Shown piece by piece: positions 39,804-51,884 of a stretch of DNA of 64,000 nucleotides (its first letter is position 1; the number at the start of each line of letters is the position of its first letter). The notes under the pieces were generated by a model. The model was not told the DNA's origin. It made no database searches and worked only from the letters and a program-made list of their open reading frames with translations. Made by a program: the position numbers and the translations under genes. The stretch is from the NCBI GenBank assembly GCA_903927025.1, contig CAIYLG010000015.1, positions 124,001-188,000 of the forward strand, written 5' to 3'. Source of the stretch: an uncultured Armatimonadota bacterium (lineage in GTDB: Bacteria > Armatimonadota > Fimbriimonadia > Fimbriimonadales > Fimbriimonadaceae).

Positions 39804-40358
39804 ATGACTCAACAGTCACTCTTTGATAGGGCATTAGGAGAAAGATGCCCTCGCTGTGGAAGCACAGATGTGACGTCGATGGACGAGCTCAGTGAGCTTG
39901 TCTCCACGGCGTCGTACCAATTCGCGCCAGATGTGTCTAAGTGGATTTCCCCTCCACAAAGCCCAGATCGCCCTATTCCGCAAAAGCGCCGGGTCGCCGT
40001 TCGAAACAGTATCGCTTTCGGAATTTCGATGGTGCTTGCTCTCTCCGTGAGCGTGTTCGCGATCACTGGAAGCCTACCTTCGTGGATTATCTGGTTTATC
40101 ATCATCACAATTGGACTCTCCGTCAGCACAAGGAACTGGAGAACGGAGTCCCGAGGTGCCGAAGAGGAAGAGGCGATGCTGCTGGAGACTCACGCTGAGC
40201 TCTACCGCGCGTACCTGCATCGGAAGAAGGTTTGGTCACGTCTCCAGTACTGCTGCAAGTGCTCCATCGTCATCGACCCGACCACATATCAAACTCGATC
40301 CCTTTATGAAATTCACGAGTTGGCAAACAACCGGACCAGTGGGGTGAGCCTCCGCTGA
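39804..40358 (+). CDS. Small membrane protein with split zinc ribbon, function unknown
   Basis: 184 residues. The N-terminal CPRCGS (Cys15, Cys18) and the C-terminal CCKC (Cys150, Cys153) are CxxC pairs on either side of two close membrane segments (about 68-88 and 91-107). If the two segments form a hairpin, both ends lie in the cytoplasm and could join into one zinc ribbon. A Glu-rich stretch (EEEEAMLLETH) follows the membrane part. No family is recognised. Its stop codon TGA overlaps the proposed CTG start of the BcsB-like gene, so it belongs to the glycan operon and may be a regulatory or scaffold subunit. Confidence 0.7.
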   Translation: MTQQSLFDRALGERCPRCGSTDVTSMDELSELVSTASYQFAPDVSKWISPPQSPDRPIPQKRRVAVRNSIAFGISMVLALSVSVFAITGSLPSWIIWFIIITIGLSVSTRNWRTESRGAEEEEAMLLETHAELYRAYLHRKKVWSRLQYCCKCSIVIDPTTYQTRSLYEIHELANNRTSGVSLR

Positions 40359-42313
40359 TTCGCGCAACCATCTTTGTTGGAACCGCATTCTTGGCAGGGC
40401 AAGCGCTGGGCGCGGATGCTCTTCTCCATCCGTTTACAACGGATCGGCCCAACCATGTTGACGGCTACGCCTGGAGCTATTTCTTTGAAATTCCGGGCGG
40501 TACGACCATGGCCCAGGATGGCGTCTTCAACATCGACTACGACACTTCACCCACTCTTTCCGGAGTGGAGGGCGGACTCACCGTACTGTTCAACCACCAG
40601 CCGGTCAACGCAGTCCCGCTGAGAATAGCCAGTCCTGATCCCACCCACTGGCAAGTTTCGATTCCCAAGAAGTACTGCAAGAAGGGCTTTAACGAGATAG
40701 ATATCATCTCCCGGAGCCGCACTACACTAGGCCCCTGCCGCGAAGATGATGACCTGATGAACTGGATTCGGTTCCGAACGACGTCAAGTCTTAGACTGCA
40801 GTTCACCGAGCCGGCACTCTATCCGCTAACGGCCTATCCGTTCCCCTTTGTCGATTGGACAAAGCAACCGGTTGCCACATTACCAATTTCTGTCACCGCG
40901 CTCGCAAAGGATCGCACCCTATCCGCTGGCCTGAATATCGCGGCTGGATGGGGCAGTAAGATGACCAATGATCTTCTAAGCCTCAAGATGACTCGGGAGC
41001 CAGTCAGCGGTCCATCAGTCCACATCGGACTGCAGCAAGAGTTTGGACTTCCGCTGACCACATTCCCAATCGAGAGCAAGAATCACGAACTCTGGGTCAC
41101 CGGAAAGAATAGCGACACCATCGACGCCGCAGTACGAGCGCTCAACAATCCTAACCTCATCGCCCAGATGACTGGGCAGACCGCGGCGCCGGTCGAATAT
41201 GTACCTAAGCCCGACGATGCGGGACCTCGAGTCGGCTCCATCACACTTGAACAGCTTGGCTACCCATTTACACGGTTAGCTGGCATCGGCAGTCAAGGTG
41301 CCGTACTCGTACTTCGGCGGCCCGTTGCTGCTCGACTCGGTCGAGGTGGCGAGCTTCGACTCAAGTTCAGACACTCAGCAGTCTTGATGAAGACTCGGTC
41401 GATTCTCTCTGTCACGATTAATGACCAGCAGGTCGGCAGTGTTGCCCTGACACCGGAAAACGCAAATGAAGGTGAAATGGTTTGCCCGTTGCCGATCAAC
41501 TTGGCGGATGCGAATGAGTGGAACGTTGCCATCATCGCCCACAACGAACTAGCAAGCGTTGACTGCGCGAAAACGTACCAAGACGTCGCCTGGACAACTA
41601 TTCTCGGAAGTTCTGATTTTGAACTCAGAGAAGGGACTCTTCCCAGCTCCCCCTTTCTGGAAGGCTTTCCTTACCTGCGTTCCCGCGAAGGCCTGTTGCC
41701 CCAATCTGCAGTCGTCAACGTCGGATCTAAGCCAAGCACAGAAGTCTTATCCTTCGCCGCCACCACCGCGGCAAGATCGTCTCAAACCAATCGCGGCCTC
41801 ACAAATTGGACTGCAAGTACGGGAGAGATCACGGGAGACGAAGATGTTGTGATCGGATTGCTTCGACAAGAAGATCGGTTCCGACCAGTGCTCCAAAAGC
41901 TCCTCGTTGCTCCATCCAAGAGCGGAGATCCAAAGATTGCCGGCAACCTGCCGATTCTCCCATCTGCGCTCGTAGGTGGGGTTGTGATTGAAGCCATTCC
42001 GAAGTCTGGAAACGGAGTTTCCTACTACGTGCTGGCATCTTCGAACGGAGCGCTTCAGCGCTTCACCGACTATCTCGCCAAACCTGAAGCCGCCGGTCTG
42101 CTCCGGGGTCAGGTTGCAGTGTTCACCAAGGAGGGAGAACTCTTTACTTTTGATACGCTAACGCCAGAAGAGCGACGGAACGCTGAGCTGGCGGAGATGC
42201 GCCGCTACAAGCCGGAAATGTCTGTGTACATGACCATCGTGCTTGGACTGTTGGCGGCAGCAGGCGTTTTCATCGCCAGCAAATTTGTAAAGAGAACTCG
42301 CCCAAAGCAGTAG
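40355..42313 (+). CDS. BcsB-like cellulose synthase regulatory subunit homologue, exported and membrane-anchored
   Basis: About 652 residues if it starts at CTG 40355 (or ATT 40358). This start restores a full signal peptide (IRATIFVGTAFLAGQALGADA) and overlaps the preceding stop; the first conventional start, TTG 40391, would cut the signal in half. The body has paired beta-sandwich and flavodoxin-like regions typical of BcsB (HWQVSIPKKYCKKGFNEIDI, GQGAVLVLRRPVAARLGRGG-like stretch, LRFKHSAVL-type strands). A C-terminal membrane helix follows (MTIVLGLLAAAGVFIASKFV). BcsB guides a nascent polysaccharide across the periplasm and docks on the synthase. The next gene, 4 bp away, is a membrane glycosyltransferase. 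Confidence 0.8.
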   Translation: MIRATIFVGTAFLAGQALGADALLHPFTTDRPNHVDGYAWSYFFEIPGGTTMAQDGVFNIDYDTSPTLSGVEGGLTVLFNHQPVNAVPLRIASPDPTHWQVSIPKKYCKKGFNEIDIISRSRTTLGPCREDDDLMNWIRFRTTSSLRLQFTEPALYPLTAYPFPFVDWTKQPVATLPISVTALAKDRTLSAGLNIAAGWGSKMTNDLLSLKMTREPVSGPSVHIGLQQEFGLPLTTFPIESKNHELWVTGKNSDTIDAAVRALNNPNLIAQMTGQTAAPVEYVPKPDDAGPRVGSITLEQLGYPFTRLAGIGSQGAVLVLRRPVAARLGRGGELRLKFRHSAVLMKTRSILSVTINDQQVGSVALTPENANEGEMVCPLPINLADANEWNVAIIAHNELASVDCAKTYQDVAWTTILGSSDFELREGTLPSSPFLEGFPYLRSREGLLPQSAVVNVGSKPSTEVLSFAATTAARSSQTNRGLTNWTASTGEITGDEDVVIGLLRQEDRFRPVLQKLLVAPSKSGDPKIAGNLPILPSALVGGVVIEAIPKSGNGVSYYVLASSNGALQRFTDYLAKPEAAGLLRGQVAVFTKEGELFTFDTLTPEERRNAELAEMRRYKPEMSVYMTIVLGLLAAAGVFIASKFVKRTRPKQ

Positions 42314-42317
42314 TTCT

Positions 42318-44357
42318 ATGACCTTTCGGCTAGACAATTACGACTGGCTCCTGATGCTCCGGGATTTTTTCGCGGGCATGACGTGGGTTGTTGCCATCGT
42401 CTACTTCCTCAGCGGCACCCAAGATCTCATCTACGATATTGGGGCCTATTGGCTGCGCTTTTGGCGGTACATGACCTACCGCAAACAGCCTCGCCTTTCA
42501 CTGGAGCGCTTAAGAGCGCGTGAGCAGCAGCGGATTGCGGTCATGGTGCCAGCATGGAACGAGGGTGAAGTTGTTGCGAGCATGGTTGACAACATCATCA
42601 AGCGGGTGGAATACGACAACTACAAGATCTTTGTGGGTACGTACCCGAACGACCCTGCAACGCAGAACTGCGTGGACCGTCTCGCCAAAGAGTATCCACA
42701 GATCATCAAGGTCGTTACGAAGCGCCCAGGTCCAACCACCAAAGCAGACTGCCTACAGAATGTCCTAGAGACCATTCGTGCCCATGAGGATGCCAATAAC
42801 GTCAACTTCGACCTCATCCTCATGCATGACGCGGAGGACTGGGTTCACCCCCAAGAGTTTCTGATCCACAACTATCTGATCCCATCTGTGGATGTCGTTC
42901 AGATCCCGATCCTTCCATTCCCATCAAAGTGGACCAAGTGGGTTCACTGGATTTACGCGGACGAGTTCTCAGAGAACCACATGAAGGACGTCCCCGTCCG
43001 AGAGAAGATCTCTGGGTTCGTCCCTTACGCAGGGACGGGAACTGGATTCTCACGCAAAGTCATCGACTTCCTCAACGATGAACACGGCGGCTACGTGTTC
43101 AACGAGAAGTCCATGACTGAGGACTACTCGATGTCCAAGAAGGTTCGAGAGTCTGGCTTCAAGTCGGTCTTCGTTAATGTCGTCCTCGCTGACGATGACT
43201 CCAAATGGTGGGTCCCGCTTTGCAAGCGACCGATGTTTATCTCGAACTGGTCTTACTTTCCGATGGACTGGACTCGGTCTGTTCGTCAGAAATCCAGATG
43301 GATCATCGGTATCTCCCTCCAAGAGTGGGAGCAGACGGGCTGGGACGGCAATTGGCTGATGAAGGAGAATTTCGTAAAGGACCGCAAGGTATTTGTCGCG
43401 GCCACAGCGTCCTTCCTCGGCTATTTGGTGCTGATCTACAACATCCTTTACGTGCTTGGCTATATGGGCTGGGTTCCATTCAAGCTGATACAAACCCTCG
43501 AGATGGGTAGCCCGCTTACCAATCTCGTCACCTTTTGTACGTTCTTCATGGTCCTCCGAATCACCCAGCGCATCGTCTGGGTGGGCCGAACCTATGGTCT
43601 CGGGGCAGGGCTTCTTGCCGTGCCCCGATTGATTGTCGGCAATATCCTCAACGGCCTTGCTTCAATGCGGGCACTCAATCAGTTCGCTGCATCTCGATCT
43701 GGAAAGGCCACCGTTCGCTGGGACAACACCCAGCACCTTGAGGGAATTGGCGACCTTGGTGGCGAGATCATGAAGAAGAAAACCATTGACCTCCAGGGGA
43801 TTCCCCTCGATCAGGTGGTTCTAGGACTCACGTCGGAAGACAACACCCTCGTGGTGAATTCACTCGGATATATCCGCTCCGATCTCAACGAGCTGGAGCG
43901 ACCGGAAATCGTCAGTTGCCTGCGCAATCTCGCAACCCACAGAGATTTGACCGTGCGGGCCTCGCTGGCAAAAACAATTGGACAGCTTCCTTGGAATGAA
44001 CTCACACCTACTCTATTTCACGCCCTGCATGACCGAGAGTCGGCAGTCGTTCTCAACGCGGCAAGGTCGTTGCTGGCACGCCCACGTTTAGGTCCGCTTC
44101 TTGAGGAAGCGTTCACAACCGGAAACTATCGAGCCGTAGACATCCTGGTCCGTATGGTTGAGCAGGATCGTAAGAGACAGAGGAACGTGTTTGAGATGAT
44201 TGAGCGAGAACACCTCGTAGTCACCCGAACGCGGATGATGAGCATGTCTCCATTCCTGCGCAAGCGGTATCAGGCGTTCTTAGAGACGCGAAATGCAGAA
44301 TCACGCGGAGCCATTTCAACCTTTGGAATGGAGTTCCCAACAACCGATCCGGCGTAG
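42318..44357 (+). CDS. NfrB-like membrane glycosyltransferase (GT2) with C-terminal HEAT-like repeats
   Basis: 679 residues. An N-terminal membrane helix (about 15-35) and the GT2 core align by eye with Escherichia coli NfrB: MVPAWNEGEVVASM, FVGTYPNDPATQ, RPGPTTKADCLQNVL, HDAEDWVHP (about 170), GTGTGFSRKV, TEDYSMSKKV (about 267) and RQKSRWIIGI (about 323, QxxRW-type). Two or more membrane segments follow (about 350-430). NfrB ends in an MshEN-type c-di-GMP-binding domain; here the last 190 residues instead look like HEAT/armadillo helices (LVVNSLGYIRSDLNE, VRASLAKTIGQLP, VVLNAARSLLARP). It probably polymerises and exports a glycan together with the BcsB-like protein. Confidence 0.87.
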   Translation: MTFRLDNYDWLLMLRDFFAGMTWVVAIVYFLSGTQDLIYDIGAYWLRFWRYMTYRKQPRLSLERLRAREQQRIAVMVPAWNEGEVVASMVDNIIKRVEYDNYKIFVGTYPNDPATQNCVDRLAKEYPQIIKVVTKRPGPTTKADCLQNVLETIRAHEDANNVNFDLILMHDAEDWVHPQEFLIHNYLIPSVDVVQIPILPFPSKWTKWVHWIYADEFSENHMKDVPVREKISGFVPYAGTGTGFSRKVIDFLNDEHGGYVFNEKSMTEDYSMSKKVRESGFKSVFVNVVLADDDSKWWVPLCKRPMFISNWSYFPMDWTRSVRQKSRWIIGISLQEWEQTGWDGNWLMKENFVKDRKVFVAATASFLGYLVLIYNILYVLGYMGWVPFKLIQTLEMGSPLTNLVTFCTFFMVLRITQRIVWVGRTYGLGAGLLAVPRLIVGNILNGLASMRALNQFAASRSGKATVRWDNTQHLEGIGDLGGEIMKKKTIDLQGIPLDQVVLGLTSEDNTLVVNSLGYIRSDLNELERPEIVSCLRNLATHRDLTVRASLAKTIGQLPWNELTPTLFHALHDRESAVVLNAARSLLARPRLGPLLEEAFTTGNYRAVDILVRMVEQDRKRQRNVFEMIEREHLVVTRTRMMSMSPFLRKRYQAFLETRNAESRGAISTFGMEFPTTDPA

Positions 44358-45529: not shown

Positions 45530-47356
45530 TTATAGAGTAATCGTCAGAGTTTGCGTCTTGCTGAGGGATCCAACTGATGCAGAAATCTCGGCAATCGTCT
45601 TAGCCGTCACAGCAGCCGTTGTGATCGTAAAGGCAACTGCGTTCTGCCCGGCTGGGATCGTCACCGTCGCCGGTACGCTTGCCGATGCTGAGTTGCTTGA
45701 GAGAGTGACGATCAATCCACCTGCTGGAGCTGGACCATCCAACCGAATCAAGCCAGTGGAAGTGTTGCCTCCCTTAACGTGCGAAGGGTGAATGTCGAGT
45801 TCCACAAGGGAAACTGGGTTCACTATGAGCGTCGCTGTTTGAGTTGCCGTTCCAACCGTTGCCGTGAGGGTCACGGGTGTCTGAAGGGCCACAGAACTGG
45901 TCGCAATCTTGAACGTAGCAGACTTGTGACCTTCCTTGATCGTCACCGTTGCAGGAACTGTTGCCGAAACATCACTGCTGGTAATTCCAACAACGACGCC
46001 ACCGCTGGTAGCGAGCCCATTCAGAGCGACCACTCCAACAACCGTATGACCGCCGGAAATGCTGGTTGGGAAGACATTGATGGAAGCCAACCCAAGCGGG
46101 CTCACCGTCAAGGCAGCCGTTTCCGTAACCGTACCATCGGTTGCCGAAATCACGGCTGAAACCGAACTGGTCACCGTGGCTCCAACCACTTTGAAATCAG
46201 CTTCATCATGGCCCTGCTTTACCGTCACCGTCGCCGGAACCGTAACGGACGAGCTGTTGCTGGAAACTTGAATGGCGTATCCGCCCTGAGGGGCTCGCCC
46301 TGTCAACCGAACGTGACCAATTGTGGACCCACCCGAAGAAAGTGCTGTTTGATCGAGAGTCAATGCCTTCAGCGCAGGAGGCGTCACAGTAATCGAGGCC
46401 GTCTGTGTGACCCCACCGATCGCTACCGTGAGTGTTACGAGTGTGGAAGTCGATACGGAACCAGCCATGATCCCAAACGATCCGGTAGTTTGCCCCCCTC
46501 GAATTCTGACCTGACCTTCAACATTTGCCGCTGAATTGTTTGTCGTTACCTTCGCGGTCAACCCACCAGACGGAGCGGCCGTCGCCAAGGTAACTGTTCC
46601 GGTAGAACTTGAACCGCTTCCAATCGTCGTTGGATTTACGGAAACCGTAAAGGATGCGGTTGGCTCAACCAACAGTCCTGCCGATTCCTTTGAGTTGCCC
46701 AGCGTAGCCGTGATCTTCACGCGAGCCTGACTCGATACTGCCGAAGTGGCGATCGCGAAAGTCGCGGAACTGGTGCCCTCTGAGACGCTGACCGAGGTAG
46801 GCACCGATGTCGAAGCATCACTGCTGGAAAGTGTAACTGTGGATCCGCCGGCCGGAGCAGCTCCATTCAGCGTTACGGTTCCGGTCGCCGCTCCTCCGCC
46901 CGTAACGGTCGCAGGCGAAATGGCGACGGAGGCGATTTGAAGCGCCTCAATCTTAAGTTCTGTGTGACGAGTTCGGCTATCTAAGGATGCCGAGATTCGT
47001 GCGGATGTCGTTTTTCCTACTACCGTTGTCGCTACCGAAAAGGTCGCTGTGGTGGCTCCAGACGCGACGACAGCGCTACCCGGAGTCGTCGCGGCAGCAT
47101 TGTCGCTCGCGAGCGAAACTGACACACCCGCGGTTGGGGCGGCAGAATCGAGGGTGACTGTTCCTGCAGAAGTCGCACCCCCAAGCACAAACCCGGGTGA
47201 AAGCGAAACCGAGGACAGCCGCGGTCCGGATGCAAATGCTTGCCCTATAAGCGCAGTGCACAGGGCAGCCAAAACGACCGTCCCTCTAAGTGACCTGGTT
47301 GACGCTCGCCTAAGCATCCCGCTTCGTTGAGGTCGGCTCGTGAATTTAATCGTCAT
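45530..47356 (-). CDS. Secreted protein of six Ig-like/beta-strand repeats
   Basis: 608 residues. After a signal peptide (about 20-42) there are six tandem repeats of about 94 residues. Each starts like LSSVSLSPGFVLGGATSAG with the core GxVxLxxxAPxGG, then SSxxxxxxVPxxVTVxxGxxxAxFxI, then VxIxAxxGxxxxTAxLxV. The six openings are LSSVSL, IASVAI, FTVSVN, LKALTL, LASINV and LVELDI. This is an extracellular beta-sandwich array that could be an adhesin or a spacer of the cell surface. It lacks cysteine and has no visible anchor domain at its end. AAAGGAG lies about 16 nt before the ATG. Confidence 0.85.
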   Translation of the reverse strand: MTIKFTSRPQRSGMLRRASTRSLRGTVVLAALCTALIGQAFASGPRLSSVSLSPGFVLGGATSAGTVTLDSAAPTAGVSVSLASDNAAATTPGSAVVASGATTATFSVATTVVGKTTSARISASLDSRTRHTELKIEALQIASVAISPATVTGGGAATGTVTLNGAAPAGGSTVTLSSSDASTSVPTSVSVSEGTSSATFAIATSAVSSQARVKITATLGNSKESAGLLVEPTASFTVSVNPTTIGSGSSSTGTVTLATAAPSGGLTAKVTTNNSAANVEGQVRIRGGQTTGSFGIMAGSVSTSTLVTLTVAIGGVTQTASITVTPPALKALTLDQTALSSGGSTIGHVRLTGRAPQGGYAIQVSSNSSSVTVPATVTVKQGHDEADFKVVGATVTSSVSAVISATDGTVTETAALTVSPLGLASINVFPTSISGGHTVVGVVALNGLATSGGVVVGITSSDVSATVPATVTIKEGHKSATFKIATSSVALQTPVTLTATVGTATQTATLIVNPVSLVELDIHPSHVKGGNTSTGLIRLDGPAPAGGLIVTLSSNSASASVPATVTIPAGQNAVAFTITTAAVTAKTIAEISASVGSLSKTQTLTITL

Positions 47357-50816: not shown

Positions 50817-51884
50817 ATGAAGCACGCACGTTCATCCGTAATCGCATCCTTCACCGTACTCGCAGGTACCGCCGTATCCGCGACACCAGGCACTCTCCCT
50901 GAGCTGCACACCGTGGGAAACCAAATCGTGGATTCATCAGGAAGAGCAGTTCGCCTATGCGGCGTGAATACTGCCTGCCTGGAATGGAGCTCCGATGGAG
51001 AGGGGCATATTCTCGACACGATTCGGGTGGCGACGCATGACTGGCACGCCAACATCATTCGCCTTCCTCTTTCTCAGGATCGCTGGTTCGGAACCGGACC
51101 TGAGCAGAAAGACAAAGGGGAGGCTTACCAGTCCCTGGTCCAGCAGGTTGTGGACTACTGCGCCTCCAACGGCTGCTATGTCCTGCTGGATCTCCACTGG
51201 AACGACTGCAATCAGTGGGGCAGCAACATAGGTCAGCACGTGATGCCGGACATGAACAGCATCACCTTTTGGCGGTCCTGCGCAAGGGCCTATCGCAACA
51301 ACCCCGCTGTGCTGTTCGACCTGTACAATGAGCCCCACGACACGACTTGGGATATCTGGCTCAAGGGTGGCACGATTACAGAATCGAGGGGCGTCGGCGC
51401 ACGACAGGGCAGATTCGTACCCGTCAAATACAAAACCCCAGGCATGCAGGCGCTATTGGACACTGTCCGAGACATGGGCGCAAACAATGTTGTAGTTGCC
51501 GGCGGCCTTGATTGGGCGTACGACCTATCGGGATTCCTTAAGGGATACGCTCTGAAGGACGCGTATGGAAATGGCGTCGTCTATGCTTGTCACGCGTACA
51601 ACAACAAGGGGGAAACCGTCGACAAGTGGCTGTCCCATCTCGACCTAGCGAGGCCAAATTTCCCCATCATCATGAGTGAATTTGGAGATCAGGGTCGCGG
51701 CACAGGCGCAAACAAGCCCACTCCATGGATCGCGAGGGTCGTTGCGGAGATGGACAAGCGAAAGTCCAACTACATCGCATGGGATCTCCACCCAGGAGCC
51801 GGCCCCTGTCTCATCTCGGGATGGGACTACAAACCGACCCCATCGTTTGGTGAAGTCGTGAAGGCCTCAATGGCAAAGCGATAA
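50817..51884 (+). CDS. Glycoside hydrolase family 5 (endoglucanase-like), secreted
   Basis: 355 residues with a signal peptide (about 1-22) and a compact TIM barrel. LFDLYNEPHD holds the acid/base Glu172, and FPIIMSEFGDQG holds the nucleophile Glu288. VLLDLHWNDC and YACHAYNN are other GH5 motifs. It should hydrolyse internal beta-1,4 links in cellulose, mannan or a similar polymer. It has no binding module. Divergent from the TPR-sulfotransferase and convergent with the GH51 gene. Confidence 0.9.
   Translation: MKHARSSVIASFTVLAGTAVSATPGTLPELHTVGNQIVDSSGRAVRLCGVNTACLEWSSDGEGHILDTIRVATHDWHANIIRLPLSQDRWFGTGPEQKDKGEAYQSLVQQVVDYCASNGCYVLLDLHWNDCNQWGSNIGQHVMPDMNSITFWRSCARAYRNNPAVLFDLYNEPHDTTWDIWLKGGTITESRGVGARQGRFVPVKYKTPGMQALLDTVRDMGANNVVVAGGLDWAYDLSGFLKGYALKDAYGNGVVYACHAYNNKGETVDKWLSHLDLARPNFPIIMSEFGDQGRGTGANKPTPWIARVVAEMDKRKSNYIAWDLHPGAGPCLISGWDYKPTPSFGEVVKASMAKR

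Follow-up and report, generated by a model that had tools for sequence, protein, structure and literature searches.

Three genes of an uncultured Armatimonadota bacterium probably encode an inner-membrane exopolysaccharide (EPS) synthase, in which a family-2 glycosyltransferase (GT) resembling NfrB has BcsB as its periplasmic partner. The genes lie in a window of 64,000 nucleotides, the whole stretch of DNA that was analyzed, on contig C15 of a genome of 5.25 Mb (G000); among named organisms, its closest relatives are MAGs of the Armatimonadota, including Fimbriimonas. They follow one another on one strand (Table 1) and code for a membrane protein with a putative split zinc ribbon (ZR), BcsB, and the GT; the ZR and BcsB genes overlap, and 4 bp separate BcsB from the GT. 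A sequence-only reading of this DNA had described three genes packed in this way, and the gene positions confirm it.

Table 1. Coordinates of the operon features in the window
Feature	Position	Strand	Evidence
ZR, membrane protein with putative split zinc ribbon, 184 aa	39804..40358	+	Four invariant cysteines; AlphaFold model
BcsB-like periplasmic subunit (probable CTG start)	40355..42313	+	Pfam; NCBIfam; fold match to E. coli BcsB; C-terminal transmembrane anchor at residues 621–639
NfrB-like family-2 glycosyltransferase, 679 aa	42318..44357	+	GT2 core at residues 72–330; DAED, TED, and QKSRW motifs; C-terminal HEAT repeats
ZR/BcsB junction: GGTGAG 40343–40348, CTG 40355–40357, ZR stop TGA 40356–40358	40343..40358	+	Same layout in five orthologues

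The three subunits

The first large protein, read from the sequence as BcsB-like, is a genuine BcsB by profile and predicted fold. It matches PF03170 in Pfam at E=2.2e-38 with 132.5 bits, against a gathering cut-off of 21, and NCBIfam similarity backs the identity. An AlphaFold model built on a 15-row alignment (mean pLDDT 76.9) superposes on E. coli BcsB (9fmt_C) with a Foldseek E of 7.2e-36 and a TM-score of about 0.6, and every one of its best 22 PDB matches is a BcsB or cellulose-synthase chain.

The start of this gene is unusual and had escaped the sequence-only reading. Upstream of TTG 40391, the first standard start codon, the frame has no ATG, GTG, or TTG, and a hydrophobic N-terminal leader, judged by hydropathy, runs from CTG 40355. 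This signal peptide within the BcsB frame implies that CTG 40355, which overlaps the ZR stop, is probably the point where translation begins. Across five orthologues, the leader starts at the codon that overlaps the ZR stop (CTG, CTG, TTG, ATA, and ATA), and a purine-rich GGTGAG, GGAGCGAG or GGAGTGAG lies about six bases upstream of it. A non-ATG start overlapping the ZR stop, together with the purine-rich stretch, suggests that BcsB translation is coupled to ZR and perhaps throttled. Non-ATG starts appear to be used in the window (40343–40391) and at L122, L118, L110, and L119, although L110 offers an ATG three codons downstream, which may be the one used.

The second large protein is an NfrB-like GT2 enzyme, as had been proposed. 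It matches the NCBIfam model of NfrB (NF008411) at E=8.9e-124 and 414 bits, short of the equivalog cut-off of 1170, and its best model is PRK15489/NF012033 at E=9.2e-133, again below the equivalog cut-off. Its GT2 core is about 39% identical to that of E. coli NfrB over 465 aa, and the two enzymes have in common the DxD/TED/QxxRW motifs and the two strongest hydrophobic segments. These motifs are intact in the window GT and kept across 19 Armatimonadota copies. A scan of a viral collection with the GT returned no relative.

The C-terminal domain sets the GT apart from NfrB, a feature that the sequence-only reading did not include. Experiments support NfrB as an EPS synthase under c-di-GMP control; MshEN is the c-di-GMP-binding part of the E. 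coli protein and is present in 1705 of 1841 homologues (PMC8669469). HEAT_2 repeats were detected by Pfam in the window GT and in all 19 Armatimonadota copies scanned, whereas MshEN was found in none of the 19 with the same library, which did detect it in an enterobacterial NfrB-like control (L033) and in the Chitinilyticum GT. A third arrangement is seen in the L022 GT, which carries C-terminal TPR repeats instead of MshEN. MshEN, HEAT, and TPR behind one GT core indicate that the C-terminal module is exchangeable, and, with HEAT in the MshEN position, the Armatimonadota GT probably does not sense c-di-GMP directly. At L022 (6809–9989), wecB is followed by this NfrB-like GT, which is 48% identical to the window GT; the contig is labelled Methanofastidiosum, an archaeon, and is possibly mis-binned.

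ZR is consistent with the description of a membrane protein with a split zinc ribbon. A helical hairpin separates two CxxC knuckles, CPRC (residues 15–18) and CCKC (residues 150–153). All four cysteines are unchanged across 11 homologues, drawn from a pair of subfamilies that otherwise share about 20–26% identity with each other. Arginine-rich flanks suggest that both ends are cytoplasmic. Besides two long helices (61–88 and 94–146), the AlphaFold model (mean pLDDT 82.8) contains just three strands, all of them short: one follows the first knuckle, and the other two surround the second. DSSP calls strands only where a partner exists; the strand behind the first knuckle is therefore expected to pair with the hairpin at the C-terminus, which predicts that the two halves meet in a single ribbon. 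Pfam assigns the window ZR to no family above cut-off, and a fold search with the model gave no PDB match better than E=1.4.

Conservation across the Armatimonadota

Among 291 Armatimonadota genomes, a solid BcsB is present in 10, the GT in 11, and both in 10; marginal BcsB matches (18–22 bits) in G051, G150, and G276 were left out of the BcsB counts. The hypergeometric probability of this co-occurrence is 1e-17, a value not corrected for shared ancestry. Reading the neighborhoods placed 14 of 16 solid BcsB genes immediately upstream of the GT on the same strand, and the pairing noticed in one window is thus conserved; the survey and the neighborhoods together rule out chance adjacency. The other two BcsB genes are in G189 and G190, genomes of another family. 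In family f20, BcsB and the GT are found apart: two-component signaling genes follow BcsB at L111 and L113, and the GT is elsewhere. The group after BcsB at L113 includes a GAF/PAS histidine kinase with a receiver, and a HEAT-repeat protein gene lies just upstream of BcsB at L111.

Strong ZR matches are confined to five genomes of the window's genus. All 11 lie upstream of a GT, with BcsB in between at eight loci and ZR directly beside the GT at three. The host genome itself has three GT copies: that in the window, one on C22 with the full ZR-BcsB-GT order, and one on C39 with ZR and GT but no BcsB. Three Fimbriimonas-type GT loci have no adjoining BcsB and, with the separation seen in f20, indicate that BcsB is not needed beside every GT copy. 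ZR accompanies the GT even at the three loci without BcsB, and its partner is therefore most likely the GT. Weaker relatives of ZR, forming an unnamed family, occur across the Armatimonadota away from polysaccharide genes; those at six loci (L138, L139, L140, L141, L142, and L143) have a CxxC, a hydrophobic stretch, and a CPxC...DP. Their unrelated neighborhoods make the ZR family broader than the operon, and its role may be more general than this one.

In a tree of the GT, two subfamilies are resolved within the genus. The BcsB-less loci are nested in the subfamily of the window, which suggests that BcsB was lost there. The C22-type BcsB-GT operon adjoins convergent genes judged by sequence to be dTDP-rhamnose-like (rmlA, rmlB, and rmlC-like) in three genomes, at L005 (15667–19531), L114, and L115, and a UDP-sugar dehydrogenase-like gene, identified in the same way, is also near it at L005.

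Two further genes of the window deserve mention. A 608-aa protein of ~94-aa repeats, without a significant Pfam match, is encoded at 45530–47356 on the minus strand, and in 5 of 9 loci of the window's GT subfamily a member of its family follows the GT on the downstream side, no more than ~1.2 kb away. The family is hugely expanded, with 176 matched stretches in the host genome and 196 in G091; the host-genome count led us to drop this Ig-like repeat protein as a dedicated operon partner. A gene of the GH5 cellulase family (Pfam) at 50817–51884 is not evidence of a BcsZ-type enzyme.

Missing partners, rival readings, and a proposed mechanism

BcsA, BcsC, and NfrA had been noted as missing beside the operon. 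They are neither nearby nor over cut-off in the genomes checked, and homologous loci are not always accompanied by bcsA or nfrA. No outer-membrane exporter is linked to the operon, and the phrase "secretion machine" used in the sequence-only reading goes beyond this evidence. Two candidates are encoded elsewhere: wecB is over cut-off in 9/9 genomes, and a Wza-type Poly_export protein is present in 9/9. Neither adjoins the window operon; they are for this reason only a possible supplier of the donor sugar and a possible export route, respectively. Because wecB is widespread, we drew no conclusion about the substrate from its presence.

These counts bear on the possibility that the operon is a plain Nfr system, with its exporter and WecB encoded elsewhere and an NGR-like glycan as its product. 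We consider this unlikely. An NfrB-like GT and the wecB of all nine genomes fit such a system, but wecB is also common in control genomes that lack the system, NfrA_C (PF13283) is over cut-off in 0/9 genomes, and the absence of MshEN from the Armatimonadota GTs weighs against it. The GT tree argues in the same direction, as the Armatimonadota copies, together with L022, are split from proteobacterial NfrB by a long, fully supported branch.

The two large proteins could also act separately, with the GT glycosylating an acceptor, either lipid or protein, while BcsB is merely inherited along with it. The BcsB-less loci of three Fimbriimonas-type genomes and the separation in f20 would be explained in this way, yet in the 291 genomes a solid BcsB never occurs without the GT, a BcsB neighbor is retained in both GT subfamilies, and the conserved QxxRW is typical of processive GT2 enzymes, all of which makes separate action quite improbable. 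Least probable of all is a divergent cellulose synthase in which the GT replaces BcsA and makes cellulose with BcsB: although BcsB is a true homologue, the GT scores 404–444 bits on the NfrB, PRK15489, and PRK14716 models and has no match to cellulose-synthase models at E<=1, no PilZ domain was found in it, CelA (TIGR03030), the BcsA model, is over cut-off in 0/11 genomes and BcsC (PF05420) in 0/9, and the betaproteobacterial cousins of the system have a linked wecB, whose product forms UDP-ManNAc.

For the EPS synthase that we favor, we infer the following division of labor. On the cytoplasmic side of the membrane, the GT would polymerize sugar units supplied by a nucleotide-sugar donor and would pass the chain across; by homology with NfrB, the polymer possibly contains ManNAc. 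BcsB, held by its C-terminal helix, would receive the chain on the periplasmic side, the part that it plays for BcsA in cellulose synthase. The HEAT domain, sitting where MshEN sits in NfrB, would provide cytoplasmic control or docking, and ZR, anchored in the membrane, may serve the GT as an adaptor or assembly factor in the cytoplasm.

Precedents and a candidate for the Fimbriimonas capsule

The pairing of BcsB with an NfrB-like GT is not new in kind, and here the sequence-only reading, sound in its BcsB, its NfrB-like GT, and their conserved pairing, overreached in presenting the hybrid itself as novel. Variovorax paradoxus likewise has BcsB immediately before an NfrB-family GT, in the order wecB-bcsB-GT-nfrA; this GT has neither HEAT nor MshEN. 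BcsB adjoins the GT in Chitinilyticum as well (bcsB-GT; PF03170, 2.2e-16), and Sellner et al. 2021 (PMC8669472) reported that the nfr cluster of Achromobacter contains a BcsB homologue. The Variovorax and Achromobacter clusters differ from the window in having a linked wecB and an NfrA-type protein, with no ZR reported. Of 70 loci beyond the first Armatimonadota set, 62 have NfrA next to the GT. Compared with the E. coli NfrB/NfrA system of the N4 glycan receptor (NGR), the Armatimonadota module lacks NfrA and has BcsB and ZR added. It resembles the BcsA-BcsB cellulose synthase in the BcsB fold and C-terminal membrane anchor but differs in its catalytic partner, which is not BcsA, and in having no PilZ domain and no BcsC.

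More distant parallels are Bacillus ydaJKLMN and the zetaproteobacterial stalk genes sfz1-sfz2 (PMC8250860): in each of these EPS gene groups, a BcsB-like protein is combined with a GT2 other than BcsA. The PF03170 match given by B. subtilis is YdaN. Both groups differ from the window operon in the family of the GT2 and in the remaining partner genes. What is distinctive here is the exchange of MshEN for HEAT, the ZR subunit, and the lack of a linked exporter.

A capsule has been seen in F. ginsengisoli, and no complete EPS cluster was found in its genome paper (PMC4072686). The genome G080, from the genus of the window genome and probably F. ginsengisoli Gsoil 348, has two GT loci; taken together, these observations make the module a candidate maker of that capsule. 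As a tentative extension, the operon could represent a distinct, c-di-GMP-independent class of synthase, in which HEAT repeats and a split-zinc-ribbon subunit would control an NfrB-type GT, BcsB would act in the periplasm, and the Fimbriimonas capsule would be made and exported through an unrecognized outer-membrane route. Beyond this genus, the findings suggest that BcsB, as a subunit that handles the chain, can be reused without being bound to BcsA or to cellulose, and that NfrB-type synthases can exchange their cytoplasmic control module among MshEN, HEAT, and TPR. For F. ginsengisoli, whose capsule has had no recognized complete EPS cluster, specific candidate genes can now be named.
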